A stretch of DNA of 64,000 bases, taken from NCBI GenBank assembly GCA_019637585.1, contig JAHBVL010000001.1, positions 620,001-684,000 of the forward strand, in the 5' to 3' direction. The notes beneath the pieces are model-generated. The model had not been told where the DNA came from and did no database searches. It saw nothing but the letters and a program-made list of their open reading frames with translations. A program made the translations under genes and the position numbers. Source of the stretch: Thermomicrobiales bacterium. GTDB lineage: Bacteria > Chloroflexota > Chloroflexia > Thermomicrobiales > UBA6265. Shown here piece after piece: positions 31,693 through 64,000 of the stretch. The number at the start of each line of letters is the position of its first letter. The first letter of the stretch is position 1.

Positions 31693-34467
31693 TTGAGTAT
31701 GAAGATCATACGCCGGAGCCGCAGCGCGGCTCCCTTGATGCATATCCTGGTTCTTGGGGCCATCTTCCTGGCGATAACGGCAAATCTGGCCCCAGTTGCC
31801 GGCGGCGACGTTCGTGCCGAATCGACCGCCGATGCGCTGACCGAAGCCGTTTCCGAAACACTGACTGAGGGCGAACCAGAAATCGCCGCGACCACCGGGC
31901 TGGACATTCAGGCCACGGGCGGACCGGCTTACGTGACGGTCCACACCTACCTCTGCGATGGCAGTGGGGATTGGGCCGGTCAGTCCTACACGACGCTGCG
32001 GGACAGCTGCGCGTCGGTGCAGGATGTCGCGTTCACGTTGACCAGTACCGCGCCGGATGGCGCAGTCACCCTCGATGAAACCGCCGTGTCCGATGGCGAT
32101 GGCCTCGCATTCTGGTCTGTCGACGCTCCGAGCATGGCAACGATCGCCGAGCTATTGCCTCCTGGATATGGCGACCCGATGGTCTTTTGCGGTTTGGCCA
32201 CCGGTATGAACCTCTCCCAGACGGGTTCGGCGGGCGGCATTGTCTCTCTCGCGCTGGCGTTCGATGAGCAGTACTACTGCGACTGGTTCAACGTCATGGG
32301 CACTGGAGCCGCAGGGGAGGGCGAGGATGAAGGCGAAGAACGATCGGTGTCGATCCTCAAGCTGATCTGCCTCCCGGAGAGCGGGCAACAGACCCTCCTG
32401 ACGAACGCTCAATCCGGTACCTCCAACCTGGGTCCACGCCAGGGGGATCCCAATGATCCGTCAGGCGACATGCTCTGTACCGAGTTCGAAACCGAAATCG
32501 GATCCGGGTTCACCTTCGACGCAACAGTCGACGGTCAGCCGCTCGAGTCGAAAACGACCGACGACACCGGCTACGCGGGCTGGACTGGCATGCCAGAGGG
32601 AGAGATGGTCATCAGCGAACAGATTCCGGATGGCTATGGCACCCCCTATTTCTATTGCCATGGCGGGCGGGCGCCGATTGTCAATGGATTCACCAATTCA
32701 GCAACTCTGCCGATCATCGGGAAGACCCGGATCGAATGCGTGGTGGTGAATGTTCCGGAAACGGAGGGTGGTTACGCCGACGTCGTGATCTACAAGTGGG
32801 TCTGCGAAACCTACCCGGATCCCGTAGTCGTCAAGATCCCGTCCGAGCTCGAAAGCGAAGGCTGCTTCCTCGTGGAAGGCGTCGATTTCGACATCACCTA
32901 CGGCGAACCGGACGAAATGGTGACGGGCACCACCGACGGTACAGGAACGGTCGAGTGGGGCGGTATCGCGGCCGGAGACATCGCCATCGAGGAGCGGGTG
33001 CCGCCCGGGTACGGTGAGCCGGTCATCTATTGCGAGAGCGAACTGCCGACGGGATCGGGGCAGTCTCCGGAGCACGATCCGGTCTATGGCGCTGCGCTGA
33101 CGGCCATGCTCTCCGACGGCGAGGTGCTGGTCTGCCACTGGATCAATGTGCCGAGCGACGATGCTTCCATCATCATCTACAAGTACACCTGTCCGGACGG
33201 GTATGACCTCTGGGCGGATGGCGCAGATCCGGTTTACGAATGCGCCGAACTGACCGATGGTGTCGAGTTCACCATTCGCGGTGATGCGATCGATGAAATC
33301 TCGGTGACGGGATCGGCCGGGACTGGCGCGGTCGCCTGGAACGATCTGGCACCGGGTGGATACGCCATCGAGGAAACGCCGCCGCCCGGCAATGCCAGCG
33401 CGTTCGTGCTCTCCTGCGAGGGCGGAACCGTGCCAATGATCCAGAATGTGCCGCTCTCCACTGGCTACGATCTGTGGATCGAAGCGATGCCGGGCGATCA
33501 CATCGTTTGCTACTGGTACAACGTTCCCGAGCCCGACTGGGGCTCCGTGACGGTGATCAAATACGCCTGCGCGACCGAGCACTTTGTCAATTCTCACGAC
33601 TGCCAGATCTATGAAGACGGTGTGCAATTCCAGCTCTTCCACTGGACCGGTTCGCAGGCAAGCGTGACCGGGTCGGGCGTCACCAACAGCGCCGGGGTCG
33701 TGACCTTCGGTGGGCTCGAGGCAGGGTGGTATGAGCTGGATGAGATCGGGGCTGAATGGTGTTACGCGGAAGCCAGCCGCTCGACCAGCGAGGGATATCT
33801 CGACGTTCTGGCAGGGAAGAAAACGACGGTCTGGGTCTACAACTGCGGTGTCGACATTCCAAAGAAGCCAGTGGTCACATACCCGAACACCGGGGTGGGG
33901 CCGAGCGCAGCAGTGGTGATGCCCTCGGCAGCACCGGTAAGTGAACAGGGAGCGCATCTGGCGCTCCCGCACAACCGGATCGCCGGGATTCTGGACAGCC
34001 GCATCGCGCTCAGCATGGCCGGTGGATCGCGACCGGCGGCGATTTCCATCGACTCGATCGGGCTCTCAGCGGAAATCGAAGTGCTGGAGATCGTCGATGG
34101 CGCGTTCCAGGAACCCACCTCTGCGGACAGGGTCGCCTGGTACAAGGAAACCGGCCGCCCGGGGATGGTGGGAAACATGATCCTCGCCGGTCATCTCAAC
34201 TACTGGGGTGATCCGGAAGGGGTCTTCTTCGCGCTCGATCAGGTGCAGGAGGGCGAGCTTGTCGAGATCGTCGATCCTCTGGGAGGCACTCATCAGTACA
34301 AAGTGACGGCGGTCGAACTCCTCGATGCGACGAGCGATACGCTGCAAGCGATTGCCGCGGACAGCGATGCATCGACCCTGACGCTGATCACCTGTGGCGG
34401 TCAATGGGACGGAGGGTCTCAGACCTATCTGCAGCGAACGGTCGTGAAAGCTGAGCTTGTCAGGTAG
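31693..34467 (+). CDS. Secreted SpaA-like multidomain protein fused to a C-terminal sortase
   Basis: A 924-residue exported protein. TTG at 31693 or ATG at 31699 can start it. A signal sequence spans about residues 10-45. Five SpaA/prealbumin-like domains follow (about 79-195, 218-355, 362-487, 492-612, 617-718). Each begins with a strand ending in Cys (IYKWVC, IYKYTC, VIKYAC), has a second Cys before the next strand, a GYxEPxxP-type turn, and most end C-x-W-x-NVP. Then comes YPNTG at 730-734, resembling a sorting motif. Residues ~755-924 are a sortase domain with catalytic H834 (AGHLNYWG), C901 (LITC) and R915. It is probably a class E/F type enzyme acting outside the membrane. No hydrophobic anchor follows YPNTG. 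Confidence 0.88.
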   Translation: MSMKIIRRSRSAAPLMHILVLGAIFLAITANLAPVAGGDVRAESTADALTEAVSETLTEGEPEIAATTGLDIQATGGPAYVTVHTYLCDGSGDWAGQSYTTLRDSCASVQDVAFTLTSTAPDGAVTLDETAVSDGDGLAFWSVDAPSMATIAELLPPGYGDPMVFCGLATGMNLSQTGSAGGIVSLALAFDEQYYCDWFNVMGTGAAGEGEDEGEERSVSILKLICLPESGQQTLLTNAQSGTSNLGPRQGDPNDPSGDMLCTEFETEIGSGFTFDATVDGQPLESKTTDDTGYAGWTGMPEGEMVISEQIPDGYGTPYFYCHGGRAPIVNGFTNSATLPIIGKTRIECVVVNVPETEGGYADVVIYKWVCETYPDPVVVKIPSELESEGCFLVEGVDFDITYGEPDEMVTGTTDGTGTVEWGGIAAGDIAIEERVPPGYGEPVIYCESELPTGSGQSPEHDPVYGAALTAMLSDGEVLVCHWINVPSDDASIIIYKYTCPDGYDLWADGADPVYECAELTDGVEFTIRGDAIDEISVTGSAGTGAVAWNDLAPGGYAIEETPPPGNASAFVLSCEGGTVPMIQNVPLSTGYDLWIEAMPGDHIVCYWYNVPEPDWGSVTVIKYACATEHFVNSHDCQIYEDGVQFQLFHWTGSQASVTGSGVTNSAGVVTFGGLEAGWYELDEIGAEWCYAEASRSTSEGYLDVLAGKKTTVWVYNCGVDIPKKPVVTYPNTGVGPSAAVVMPSAAPVSEQGAHLALPHNRIAGILDSRIALSMAGGSRPAAISIDSIGLSAEIEVLEIVDGAFQEPTSADRVAWYKETGRPGMVGNMILAGHLNYWGDPEGVFFALDQVQEGELVEIVDPLGGTHQYKVTAVELLDATSDTLQAIAADSDASTLTLITCGGQWDGGSQTYLQRTVVKAELVR

Positions 34468-35234: not shown

Positions 35235-35541
35235 TTGTGGATCCTTTCGGCTAGAACGGGCAGTTCGACAGTTTGGTTTTGACTACCGTAGTGGGAGCAC
35301 TGTCATGATGCTGTGCTCTGCGACACACTCCGGCGGCATATCTATTCCCCACCCTTGAAGTGGGATGCAGTGACTCGGGTCTTCCGGCAGAGCGCCGGAG
35401 CCTACGTCTTTGGCACAGCAGCCGGTGGTCAGAACGATCCCGTCCCATCCGTGATAGAGTGACTTCGGTTTACAGACTCATCTTGATACTTGCGCAGTGC
35501 CCGGATTGCTTCGACATTCCTTGGTGGGAGGGCTCTGGTTC
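35235..35541. other. Intergenic region with one REP
   Basis: A 307-base gap. A reverse-oriented GTAG-headed REP lies at 35382-35404 (GCCGG arms, ending CTAC). The rest holds no gene that I can support; GGGAGGG at 35526-35532 is the ribosome site of the next gene. Confidence 0.65.
35382..35404 (-). repeat. GTAG-headed REP palindrome
   Basis: TTCCGGC-AGAGC-GCCGGAG followed by CCTAC; same sub-type as the copies at 20542 and 20752. Confidence 0.8.
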
Positions 35542-36975
35542 ATGGATGGCAATCGATTCGACAACGCCATTCGCGCGCTTGGCGGTGGACTGAGCCGGCG
35601 TCAGGTCATTCGGGCGTTGCTGGGTGGCGGCGCCGGCGCAGTTGCTGGTGGGCTGGCGATCTCTCGTGAAGCGCGGGCACAGGCTGGTCCTGGCGAGTCA
35701 TGCACTGTCGACACCGACTGCGCTGTTTCGACGCTCGGTCCATGCTGCGGGGCGGTTTGCGAGCAAGGAATCTGCCGGCAATTCTCCGACGACGCCAAGT
35801 GCAGCGGCGAGGGCGAATGCTTTTCCTGCAATGGCAACAATGGAACGTGCGAGTACTCCTGCGGTTCCGATGAGATCTGCTGCGACGGTCGGTGCGTCGA
35901 AACCGAGTGCTGCACGGATATCGATTGCCAGGAAGGGTTCATCTCTCTCGGGTGCTTCAACTCCATCTGCATTGCTGGTTCGTGCGAAACCGTCATCGAC
36001 AACGGGAAATGCACGGGAGAGAAGTGTTGCTGTGTCGACGACGGAACGTGTTCCGCTGAGTGTTGTGGGAGCTGCAGAGGCGCGGGAGAATCGTGCGGCA
36101 ATCCCCTTATCGCGGACGAGAGCCAGCAGCTGGAGTGCTGCGATGGACTGGTCTGTTGTGGAGATGGCGACGATCGAGTCTGCGGTCAATGCTGTGGCGA
36201 TGAGGATTGCGGCTACTCGCCTTGCGCGCGCGTCACATGCAACGCGGAGACCCATGTCTGCGGCGCCGTTTCCCTTTGCCCGCCGGTGGCGCCGGGAACC
36301 TATCAGTGCTGCGCGGTTGGTCCAGGAGAGGACTATTGTTACGGTACCGCCGCGATCGCCGAGTTCGACTGTTGCTCAGATGAAGATTGCTGGGACCAGG
36401 TGGCGCCACAGTCGTGTCAGTTCGGCTACTGCCGGAACGGACTTTGTGAGATCGAGCTGGACGATTCCGTCTGCCCCGATGGCCAATGTTGTTGTGACAA
36501 TGGCTCCTGCCATGAAAACTGCTGCGAACCGTCATCGTGTGAGGATGACCACGATTGCCGCAAGGGGTCGATCTGCTGCGCCGGAAATTGCCGGGAGATC
36601 GAGTGCTGCATCGACGATGTCCTGACCGGCGGCAACCCGAACGACCGCTGCCCCGGCAAGTGCACCTGTTTCGAGGGGTTGTGCGTCGATAAGCACCAGA
36701 ACCACTGCGATGTTTGTCACTCGGACAAGGAATGCGGCAAGGGCGAATGTTGTTGCAAGGATGGCAGCTGCTCGCACAAATGTTGTGGTTGGTCGGGTAG
36801 ACCGAGCAAGACGACGTCGCCGCCGGTGCAGATCGACACGTTGCCGAATACGGGGTCAGGCCCCGGTCAGGTCAGCACGCCCTTGATTGCCGGCGCGGCG
36901 CTCGCAGCCGGCGCCGCGGCTTTGCTGGCCGCGCAGCAGATGCGTGAGGACGAGTCTCAGGAGCGCGGTGCGTAG
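35542..36975 (+). CDS. Tat-exported, cysteine-rich LPNTG wall-anchored protein
   Basis: A 477-residue protein, start ATG 35542 with GGGAGGG 9 bases upstream. Residues ~17-47 are a twin-arginine signal (LSRRQVIRALLGGGAGAVAGG). The mature part has about 77 cysteines by my count in ~380 residues, with CC and CCC clusters; a motif CCC-x2/3-G-(S/T)-C-x3-CC occurs three times. The C-terminus has LPNTGSGPG, a ~20-residue hydrophobic helix and a short charged tail, a classical sortase sorting signal. It resembles knottin-like disulfide-rich domains. The Tat route may allow cofactor loading or folding before export. The sortase fusion 1.1 kb upstream is the likely anchoring enzyme. Confidence 0.87.
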   Translation: MDGNRFDNAIRALGGGLSRRQVIRALLGGGAGAVAGGLAISREARAQAGPGESCTVDTDCAVSTLGPCCGAVCEQGICRQFSDDAKCSGEGECFSCNGNNGTCEYSCGSDEICCDGRCVETECCTDIDCQEGFISLGCFNSICIAGSCETVIDNGKCTGEKCCCVDDGTCSAECCGSCRGAGESCGNPLIADESQQLECCDGLVCCGDGDDRVCGQCCGDEDCGYSPCARVTCNAETHVCGAVSLCPPVAPGTYQCCAVGPGEDYCYGTAAIAEFDCCSDEDCWDQVAPQSCQFGYCRNGLCEIELDDSVCPDGQCCCDNGSCHENCCEPSSCEDDHDCRKGSICCAGNCREIECCIDDVLTGGNPNDRCPGKCTCFEGLCVDKHQNHCDVCHSDKECGKGECCCKDGSCSHKCCGWSGRPSKTTSPPVQIDTLPNTGSGPGQVSTPLIAGAALAAGAAALLAAQQMREDESQERGA

Positions 36976-62444: not shown

Positions 62445-64000
62445 CTAGTGCATCCATCGCCGCCGGGTCGTCGCCGCACCCAGACCGAACAGCACCATCG
62501 ACCCGGCTAGTAGGAAGAGCGCGTTGCCATTCGACGTGGTTCCCGTTCCGGTGTTTGGCAGCGTGTTCACCTCCACACCACCGGGCTTCTGTGGCTTGTG
62601 CGGTTTGTGTGGCTTCTTGGTGACGTAGTTCCAGACGGTGATCTCCGTCATTTCATTTTCGTTCACCCAGAAATCCTCAGTCGCGCCGGTATCGACTTCG
62701 ACGATGGTGTGCGGACCCGTGACGTCATTCGTTACCGGCAGGGTGATCCATGCCACTCCGTCCTTGCCTGTGCGGAACGGAATAACAGACTCGTCATCAC
62801 CATAGACCCAGATTTCGAAGTCTGCCTTGCCGAGCCGGCAGTCGTGAGCATGACCGCCACCCTCGCCTCCGGCAGGCGAAATCGGGTAGTCGACCTCGAT
62901 AACGGTCCCCCGTTCCTTGGCCAGGCAGTAGTACTTGGTGACTTCCACCTGTCCGGAGATATAGACATAGTTAGTCACGTAGAGATACGACATCTGGGCC
63001 GCGACGATCGTGAATCCGTAGACCGTGCTGTCGCCAATTTCCTGGATGGTGTAGTCGCCAACGGGAAGGTCCGTCAGGTAAAGGTAGCCGCCTTCGGTCG
63101 TCGAGTAGGTGCCGATGACGGAGCCATTGTGCGAGATGGTGAAACTGGCCGGGCCCACGAAGCAGTTGGCATCATAGGAAAACTCGGACGAATAGTGGAC
63201 ACGCGCATCGTCCGGATTGGCAACGCGGCAGAAGCGCTTCACGAGCGTGAAATCGCCAGTCACCTGCCTGAACAGCACCGACCAGTCACCGGTGCCAGTG
63301 CCGATTGGATCGGTCAGGTTGCCATTCTGGAAGTGGAACACACTGTCGCCAGTCAGCACGAAGTTGGTTGGCGGGCTGACCAGCTGGATACGAATCGACT
63401 GGTTCGGAACAGTGAGCACCACGCTGCCGCCGCTGGTTCCGACATTGGTCAGACCCGGGAAAACCGACGCGTCGATCGCGTTGCCGGCGCTATCCAGGAT
63501 GGTGTAGACGGCGCCATCCATCGCCACATTGGAGCCGGTCGTCGCGTCGAAGCTGCGCAGTGTGAACTGCCGCGACTCGCGCGCAAAGAGCACTGACCAA
63601 TCCGACGCGCTGGTCGCCGAGGTCATGCTGTTGGTCTGGAAGTGGAAAACGCTGTCCCCGGTGAGCGTGAAGTAGGTTGGGGAACTGACGAGCTGAATGC
63701 GAATGGGCGCATCCGGGACGGTCAGCACTGTGCTGCCGCCGGTCGTGGTGACGTTCGTCAACCCAGGGAAATTCGTGGGATCGATGGCGTTCCCGTTCGC
63801 ATCCAGGATGTTGTAGACGGCGCCATCCATTGGCACGTTCGGCGACGTCGTCGCATTGAATGTGCGGAGGGTGAACTGTCGAGTTGGGATCGGCTCGAAG
63901 ACAACCGACCAGCTCGCACCGGTGATATTTGACAGTGTGTTGTTGTTCTGGAAATGGAACACACTATCGCCGGAGAGCTGATGCGCCGCTGGAGGACTGA
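62445..64000 (-). CDS. LPNTG wall-anchored repeat protein with SpaA-like domains (5' end outside window)
   Basis: The frame is open through the right edge, so the N-terminus is missing; 517 residues are visible. Near-identical ~103-residue repeats, each with LTGDSVFHFQ and MDGAVYNILD-type segments, follow each other (repeat starts 309 and 312 bases apart). Then come two Cys-containing SpaA-like domains: VKRFC...NCFVGPASFTI with LPVGDYTIQEIG, and TKYYC...HDCRLGKADFEIWV. The C-terminus has LPNTGTGTT, a hydrophobic helix (ALFLLAGSMVLFGLGAA) and RRRW, a sortase sorting signal. It is a likely adhesin or surface-layer component; only the fused sortase at 31693 is visible as an anchoring enzyme. Confidence 0.85.
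   Translation of the reverse strand, partial: SPPAAHQLSGDSVFHFQNNNTLSNITGASWSVVFEPIPTRQFTLRTFNATTSPNVPMDGAVYNILDANGNAIDPTNFPGLTNVTTTGGSTVLTVPDAPIRIQLVSSPTYFTLTGDSVFHFQTNSMTSATSASDWSVLFARESRQFTLRSFDATTGSNVAMDGAVYTILDSAGNAIDASVFPGLTNVGTSGGSVVLTVPNQSIRIQLVSPPTNFVLTGDSVFHFQNGNLTDPIGTGTGDWSVLFRQVTGDFTLVKRFCRVANPDDARVHYSSEFSYDANCFVGPASFTISHNGSVIGTYSTTEGGYLYLTDLPVGDYTIQEIGDSTVYGFTIVAAQMSYLYVTNYVYISGQVEVTKYYCLAKERGTVIEVDYPISPAGGEGGGHAHDCRLGKADFEIWVYGDDESVIPFRTGKDGVAWITLPVTNDVTGPHTIVEVDTGATEDFWVNENEMTEITVWNYVTKKPHKPHKPQKPGGVEVNTLPNTGTGTTSNGNALFLLAGSMVLFGLGAATTRRRWMH

Follow-up and report, generated by a model that had tools for sequence, protein, structure and literature searches.

Interest in isopeptide-bonded immunoglobulin-like domains comes from their role as mechanically locked shafts and from the tag/catcher tools derived from them. 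An open reading frame (ORF) of a Thermomicrobiales bacterium (UBA6265; assembly GCA_019637585.1) encodes five SpaA-like modules with regularly placed cysteines, and so raises the question of what the cysteines do: do they replace the isopeptide bond, are they added to it, or do they serve another role? The ORF lies in a 64,000-nucleotide stretch of contig JAHBVL010000001.1 (positions 620,001 to 684,000, forward strand), here called the window. A first-pass annotation, made from the sequence alone, had described positions 31920-33860 as SpaA-like modules that might be stapled by disulfides. The interval covers the repeats of a single ORF, and that description missed a sortase domain located beyond it. 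The features, in window coordinates, with the cysteines of each module in the order C1 to C4 and the residues at the isopeptide triad positions (Lys in strand A, Glu in strand E, Asn/Asp in strand G), are as follows.

31693..34467, + strand: whole ORF, 924 aa; start is TTG at 31693 or ATG at 31699
31924..32298, + strand: module M1, aa 78-202; Cys 88, 106, 166 and 196; triad T-E-N (Lys lost)
32338..32760, + strand: module M2, aa 216-356; Cys 226, 262, 322 and 349; triad K-E-N, read by eye
32773..33153, + strand: module M3, aa 361-487; Cys 371, 391, 447 and 481; triad K-E-N
33160..33531, + strand: module M4, aa 490-613; Cys 500, 517, 575 and 606; triad K-E-N
33538..33855, + strand: module M5, terminal type, aa 616-721; Cys 626, 637, 690 and 718; triad K-E-N; Pfam SpaA
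33880..33894, + strand: YPNTG, sorting-signal-like motif, aa 730-734
34042..34461, + strand: sortase domain, class F-like, aa 784-923; His834, Cys901 and Arg915
62610..63251 (approximate), - strand: last two modules of the LPNTG protein at the right edge; C1 and C2 only, without C3 and C4

The ORF thus begins with a signal-like hydrophobic N-terminus that is followed by the five modules, YPNTG and the sortase, and the 21 cysteines of the protein are four in each module plus Cys901, the catalytic cysteine of the sortase domain. We consider it likely that the modules are SpaA_4-like stalk domains, each with two disulfides, which in M2 to M5 are laid over an intact triad, and that the whole is a surface stalk that bears its own sortase.

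The SpaA-like fold proposed earlier is supported by Pfam, by AF2 and by CnaB structural neighbours. The AF2 model of M3, built from a 100-row alignment, has a pLDDT of 91.7 and a pTM of 0.85, and its best structural neighbours (Foldseek, VIA-align) are CnaB pilins and adhesins with Z up to 10.7, including SpaD, SpaA, SdrD and the Mobiluncus adhesin, in which a disulfide and an isopeptide occur together. The modules are therewith predicted to have the prealbumin/CnaB beta-sandwich fold of the Pfam Transthyretin clan. The whole protein scores over the cut-off for both Pfam SpaA and SpaA_4, and the SpaA_4 match to M2 falls within the module, but M3 alone scores 16.6 bits against Pfam SpaA (PF17802), under the cut-off of 23.1. 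Among 100 modules, 37 match SpaA and 20 match SpaA_4 at an E-value of 0.01, and, among the matches listed for the four-cysteine profile against solved sequences, the common core alone is covered. By these measures, the module sequence family is divergent.

In the five modules, C1 had been placed at the end of the first strand and C2 before the second, and both the cysteine counts and the AF2 strands agree: in M3, C1 follows strand A and C2 precedes strand B. A second cysteine pair, claimed originally for most of the modules, is present in all five. A C-x-W-x-NVP end, described as typical, is literal in M3 and M4 and nearly so in M1 (CDWFNVM) and M2 (CVVVNVP), but the end of M5 differs (VYNC); there, C4 comes after the Asn, with C3 at Glu+6 and C4 at Asn+1. 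An iterated HMM search over the window, 40 additional regions and further loci yielded 196 different modules, 191 of which remained after an 80% identity filter. C1, C2 and C3 align in all 196 and C4 in 163, with the C4 of the other 33 located a few residues later. As the set had been seeded with cysteine-bearing modules, the cysteines were masked in the model, which was itself built from the same modules. With this masked HMM, 196 of the 200 modules in a first set have exactly four cysteines; two of the 200 have three, one of these being M2, clipped by the domain border. When all loci are considered, and only the 208 modules that cover the columns needed for the cysteine layout are counted, 205 have two cysteines ahead of strand B and two beyond the Glu, with the middle free of cysteine. 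The three exceptions are a module with one extra cysteine (L057), one with C1 and C2 only (L112) and one without cysteines that belongs to another family (L144). The control, the same masked model applied to 51 weakly matching loci outside the family, gave 205 modules, 174 of them lacking cysteine. For an alignment, 100 modules were drawn from the 147 canonical ones that share less than 70% identity (out of 163 canonical); their identity to M3 is 21-34%, and the four cysteines are the only columns without variation. The four-cysteine layout, as aligned, therefore exceeds chance, and within the family the cysteines appear almost never to be lost while the triad comes and goes. The expectation that the cysteines would be conserved in orthologues holds in this module alignment, where they occur as fixed pairs.

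The modules fall into two types. In the canonical type, C3 is located at Glu+9 to Glu+18 (at +13 in 118 of 163) and C4 precedes the Asn in 163 of 163, whereas in the terminal type C3 is at Glu+6 in 32 of 33 and C4 follows the Asn. Since the terminal modules group as a single clade on a quick tree (SH-aLRT 93), the shift of C3 and C4 in this type represents a single event.

Modules that retain only one of the two pairs bear directly on which cysteines are joined. C1-C2-only modules were detected as 10 orthologous modules in 10 genomes, in proteins that reach ~2300 aa on contigs of sufficient length, and these ten probably descend from one loss event. Further cases are the module in L112 and, in the right-edge protein, to which the pattern had been said to extend, the two final modules; C1 and C2 are indeed kept there, but C3 and C4 are lacking. 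The regular expression for these modules demanded C1 and so is blind to modules without it. The expression for the reciprocal C3-C4-only modules demanded C3 and C4, and such modules are present in other Chloroflexota with C3 at Glu+12 to Glu+15 and C4 at Asn-4. Of its 22 matches, 15 have a recognizable Lys strand and no cysteine between the Lys and the Glu, two of which are double readings, leaving 13 distinct C3-C4-only modules. Among the other seven, four have no recognizable Lys strand and no cysteine there, one is noise, one has the Lys misplaced in the preceding module and one has two cysteines. Three C3-C4-only modules were tested against Pfam and all are SpaA_4, at 4e-15 to 9e-17. The paired, reciprocal loss, together with the joint shift of C3 and C4 in the terminal type, argues by covariation for C1-C2 bridges in the A-B loop and C3-C4 bridges between strands F and G. 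In model numbering, the relevant cysteines lie within the strands in M3 (Cys 87 and 121; F 84-90, G 118-125) and M4 (Cys 85 and 116; F 77-86, G 113-122) and flank them in M5 (Cys 200 and 228; F 201-204, G 220-227), and the predicted positions of C3 and C4 in all three modules fit one antiparallel F-G register.

Four cysteines are a common number for zinc sites, and a module with four of them could in principle hold a metal ion and have no disulfides. With the two pairs lost separately and in a protein that is presumably secreted, we judge such a site exceedingly improbable. Its geometry would also be awkward: the canonical C1 is beyond the Lys end of strand A, C4 is in strand G, four residues ahead of the Asn, and, if these two strands are parallel as they are in CnaB, the domain would hold C1 and C4 at its two far ends. 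It is also very unlikely that the cysteines form links between molecules, in fibres or with partners, or take part in redox chemistry and do not staple the domain. The predicted surface location would suit such roles, and the protein encoded at 35497-36975 in the window is likewise rich in cysteine with an LPNTG end; however, the two-plus-two arrangement is fixed in nearly every full module and is lost in pairs, and the available text on FimP describes an intradomain precedent, C53-C74, at the place of C1-C2. A reading as thioester domains was dropped because the cysteines come in pairs. Two intradomain disulfides in each module remain the preferred reading.

Whether the isopeptide triad is absent had been named as a check on the disulfide-stapled reading. 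For the 924-aa protein an absent triad is rejected: the triad is intact in M2 to M5, and only M1 departs from it, with Thr in place of Lys. Among the 191 modules, the triad is complete in 115, absent in 56 and mixed in 20. As Lys never occurs without Asn/Asp (0 of 117 modules), the pattern is the signature of a working bond. When the states complete and none are placed on a quick tree, with the 20 mixed rows excluded, at least 12 changes are needed. As read from these alignments, the triad in the family is all-or-nothing while the four cysteines stay.

The modules without a triad are concentrated in sister proteins. Seven orthologous LPxTG proteins (L058, L059, L060, L061, L062, L065 and L066), each ending in LPxTG and a hydrophobic stretch, contribute 43 of the 57 triad-free modules in the full set of 196, and each of these modules has four cysteines. 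The terminal module of all seven has Glu/Gln/Gln instead of Lys/Glu/Asn, and a separate ORF with a sortase domain is present in the same region in 7 of 7 cases. In genomes such as G003, a triad-free protein of this kind (L058 there) occurs alongside a fused protein (L052) whose modules are nearly all triad-positive. Disulfide-only modules are therefore predicted to exist in the lineage, in the sister proteins and not in the 924-aa protein. That disulfides have replaced the isopeptide bond, leaving the modules held by sulphur bridges alone, could describe these sister proteins and the 56 modules without any triad residue, but for the modules of the 924-aa protein it is unlikely, as M2 to M5 keep Lys, Glu and Asn, and 115 of 191 modules combine the full triad with four cysteines. 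A further reading, held tentatively as a little short of an even chance, is that the staple common to the family is the two invariant disulfides, that the isopeptide, the hallmark of the fold elsewhere, is here a dispensable extra whose triad has repeatedly disappeared (or appeared) as a whole without change to the cysteines, and that part of the family is self-sorting. If so, the family offers naturally occurring stalks graded from triply stapled ones to those with disulfides alone, and self-sorting would mean that the stalk, its signal and its sortase are one chain that cuts itself.

That the cysteine pattern may be a lineage feature, as suggested at the outset, agrees with its distribution: the four-cysteine profile matches all 32 genomes of this Thermomicrobiales family and none of the 29 from the other families of the order. 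In the class, 64 of 158 genomes match, none of them from the order's other families. In a phylum sample of 400 genomes, a further 56 genomes match, at E-values no better than 3e-9 and, among the matches listed, over part of the profile. The named fused relatives in the public collection are metagenome-assembled genomes (MAGs) of Chloroflexota/Thermomicrobiales, including UBA6265, and the earlier guess of Chloroflexota was correct. The four-cysteine module, so defined by profile, is a trait of a single lineage, this Thermomicrobiales family. Two further large proteins with SpaA matches are encoded elsewhere in the same genome. A 3729-aa protein (L039:1264-12450:+, contig G000:C15) has SpaA modules with cysteines at other positions (GACF, VCDN); all 29 modules examined have exactly two, near strands B and C, most also with the triad, a second and different staple geometry. 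A 3808-aa protein (L042:3128-14551:-, G000:C2) has 64 cysteines in spaced pairs.

The sortase domain matches PF04203 at 6e-20 (71.7 bits, cut-off 26.6). Its best sortase class is class F (NF033748) at 4e-24, and with 85 bits, under the curated cut-off of 166, it is classed by profile as class F-like and not as class F proper. The same order of modules, terminal module, motif and sortase is found in 8 complete ORFs from 7 family genomes; this genome contributes two of the eight, and 2 of its 5 sortases are such fusions. Two further ORFs (G001 L179 and G029 L017), at a contig edge or with a broken frame, were left out. His834, Cys901 and Arg915 are invariant in 8 of 8 fused proteins, and the sorting motif, an LPXTG variant, is YPNTG in seven and YPDTG in one. 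In six of the eight (L010, L050, L051, L052, L053 and L055), a hydrophobic stretch and an Arg cluster are recognizable by eye between motif and sortase; no hydrophobic segment follows YPNTG in the 924-aa protein, nor in L045. The YPNTG linker is modelled by AF2 with low confidence (residues 236-286 under 50) and is probably disordered, consistent with a flexible tether. In L052 and L055, an SRRxFL run, which we take to be a Tat-like motif, lies between YPNTG and the sortase; the arrangement looks like an in-frame join of a substrate gene to a gene for a Tat- or TM-led sortase.

Elsewhere in the Chloroflexota, the sortase was found behind DUF11, CarboxypepD_reg/SpaA, DUF4012 or DUF4397 domains in 6 of 7 long ORFs tested (L166, L167, L168, L169, L170, L171 and L175), so the joining of sortases to surface proteins extends more widely across the phylum. 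LPNTG is present ahead of the sortase in L166 and L169. A near search of plasmids for the stalk-sortase protein gave no match, and in a plasmid protein search the sortase part alone was matched, among the 10 matches listed of 19 records. The protein encoded downstream of the stalk ORF on the same strand (35497-36975, +), with a Tat-like SRRQV start and a hydrophobic tail after its LPNTG, may be a substrate of the fused sortase; a Pfam search with it returned no match.

Taken together, the proposed arrangement is that C1-C2 would close the A-B loop beside the isopeptide Lys and C3-C4 would bridge the antiparallel strands F and G. With these disulfides on top of an intact triad in M2 to M5, most modules should be triply cross-linked. 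Both kinds of bond presumably form, and the chain would then be a secreted, oxidatively folded, stiff and protease-resistant stalk. The sortase most likely cleaves YPNTG, in its own or a neighbouring molecule, and would attach the stalk to the cell surface; that it acts on its own chain is likewise presumed. For oxidative folding, this genome encodes a pair of DsbA-like CPxC proteins, of which one has a membrane anchor recognized by eye. Neither a DsbB nor a VKOR homologue was found in this genome, and VKOR is present in 15 of the 32 family genomes. With two invariant disulfides, with or without the triad, on one fold and sometimes within one genome, the contribution of each cross-link becomes testable, and a sortase located behind its presumed own substrate is a second, testable oddity.

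Descriptions of a SpaA-sortase fusion, or of a sortase fused to its own substrate, were not found in the open-licence PMC literature, and the available text of related papers yielded no invariant two-disulfide module, no all-or-nothing triad with fixed cysteines and no stalk-sortase fusion. Relative to class F sortases, the domain shares the catalytic His, Cys and Arg but is here the C-terminal domain of a presumed own substrate. Disulfides in such domains are themselves established, and the premise that known SpaA/CnaB domains are poor in cysteine was too strong, as available accounts document them in FimP, in Corynebacterium diphtheriae SpaA and in SpaA_2, SpaA_3 and SpaA_4 domains. A 2025 survey, in its available text, reports disulfides beside isopeptides as prevalent in the last three and in 42.7% of Chloroflexota isopeptide domains (PMC12617251). 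SpaA_4 (PF24514), SpaA_2 and SpaA_3 resemble the present modules in fold, triad and frequent disulfides; the SpaA_4-type modules compared are without C1-C2, whereas the present module has a longer A-B loop and a second pair.

The giant adhesin of Mobiluncus mulieris is described as combining ester, isopeptide and disulfide bonds (PMC10619420). Like the stalk, it has tandem Ig-like domains, with an isopeptide and a disulfide in one domain (5u6f and 5u5o, Z 8.7 and 8.5), but its disulfide is at strands 2 and 5, it has ester bonds in addition, and a sortase is not mentioned in the available text. In C. diphtheriae SpaA, tandem Ig-like modules similarly contain isopeptides and a CnaB disulfide, which, in the available account, is limited to the C-domain (PMC3485203). 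The closest parallel in cysteine position is the Actinomyces oris shaft pilin FimP, where, as far as that account extends, Cys53-Cys74 spans the beta1-beta2 loop with Cys53 next to an isopeptide-type Lys, and the C-domain has a second disulfide, with isopeptide and disulfide in one domain (PMC3485203). FimP and the modules have in common the CnaB fold and a disulfide at the place of C1-C2. By the same account, FimP has one disulfide per domain in two of its three domains and is a pilin with LPXTG and a TM segment but no fused sortase, whereas the modules described here have two pairs each, with C1 at Lys+3, in a 924-aa protein to which the sortase is fused.
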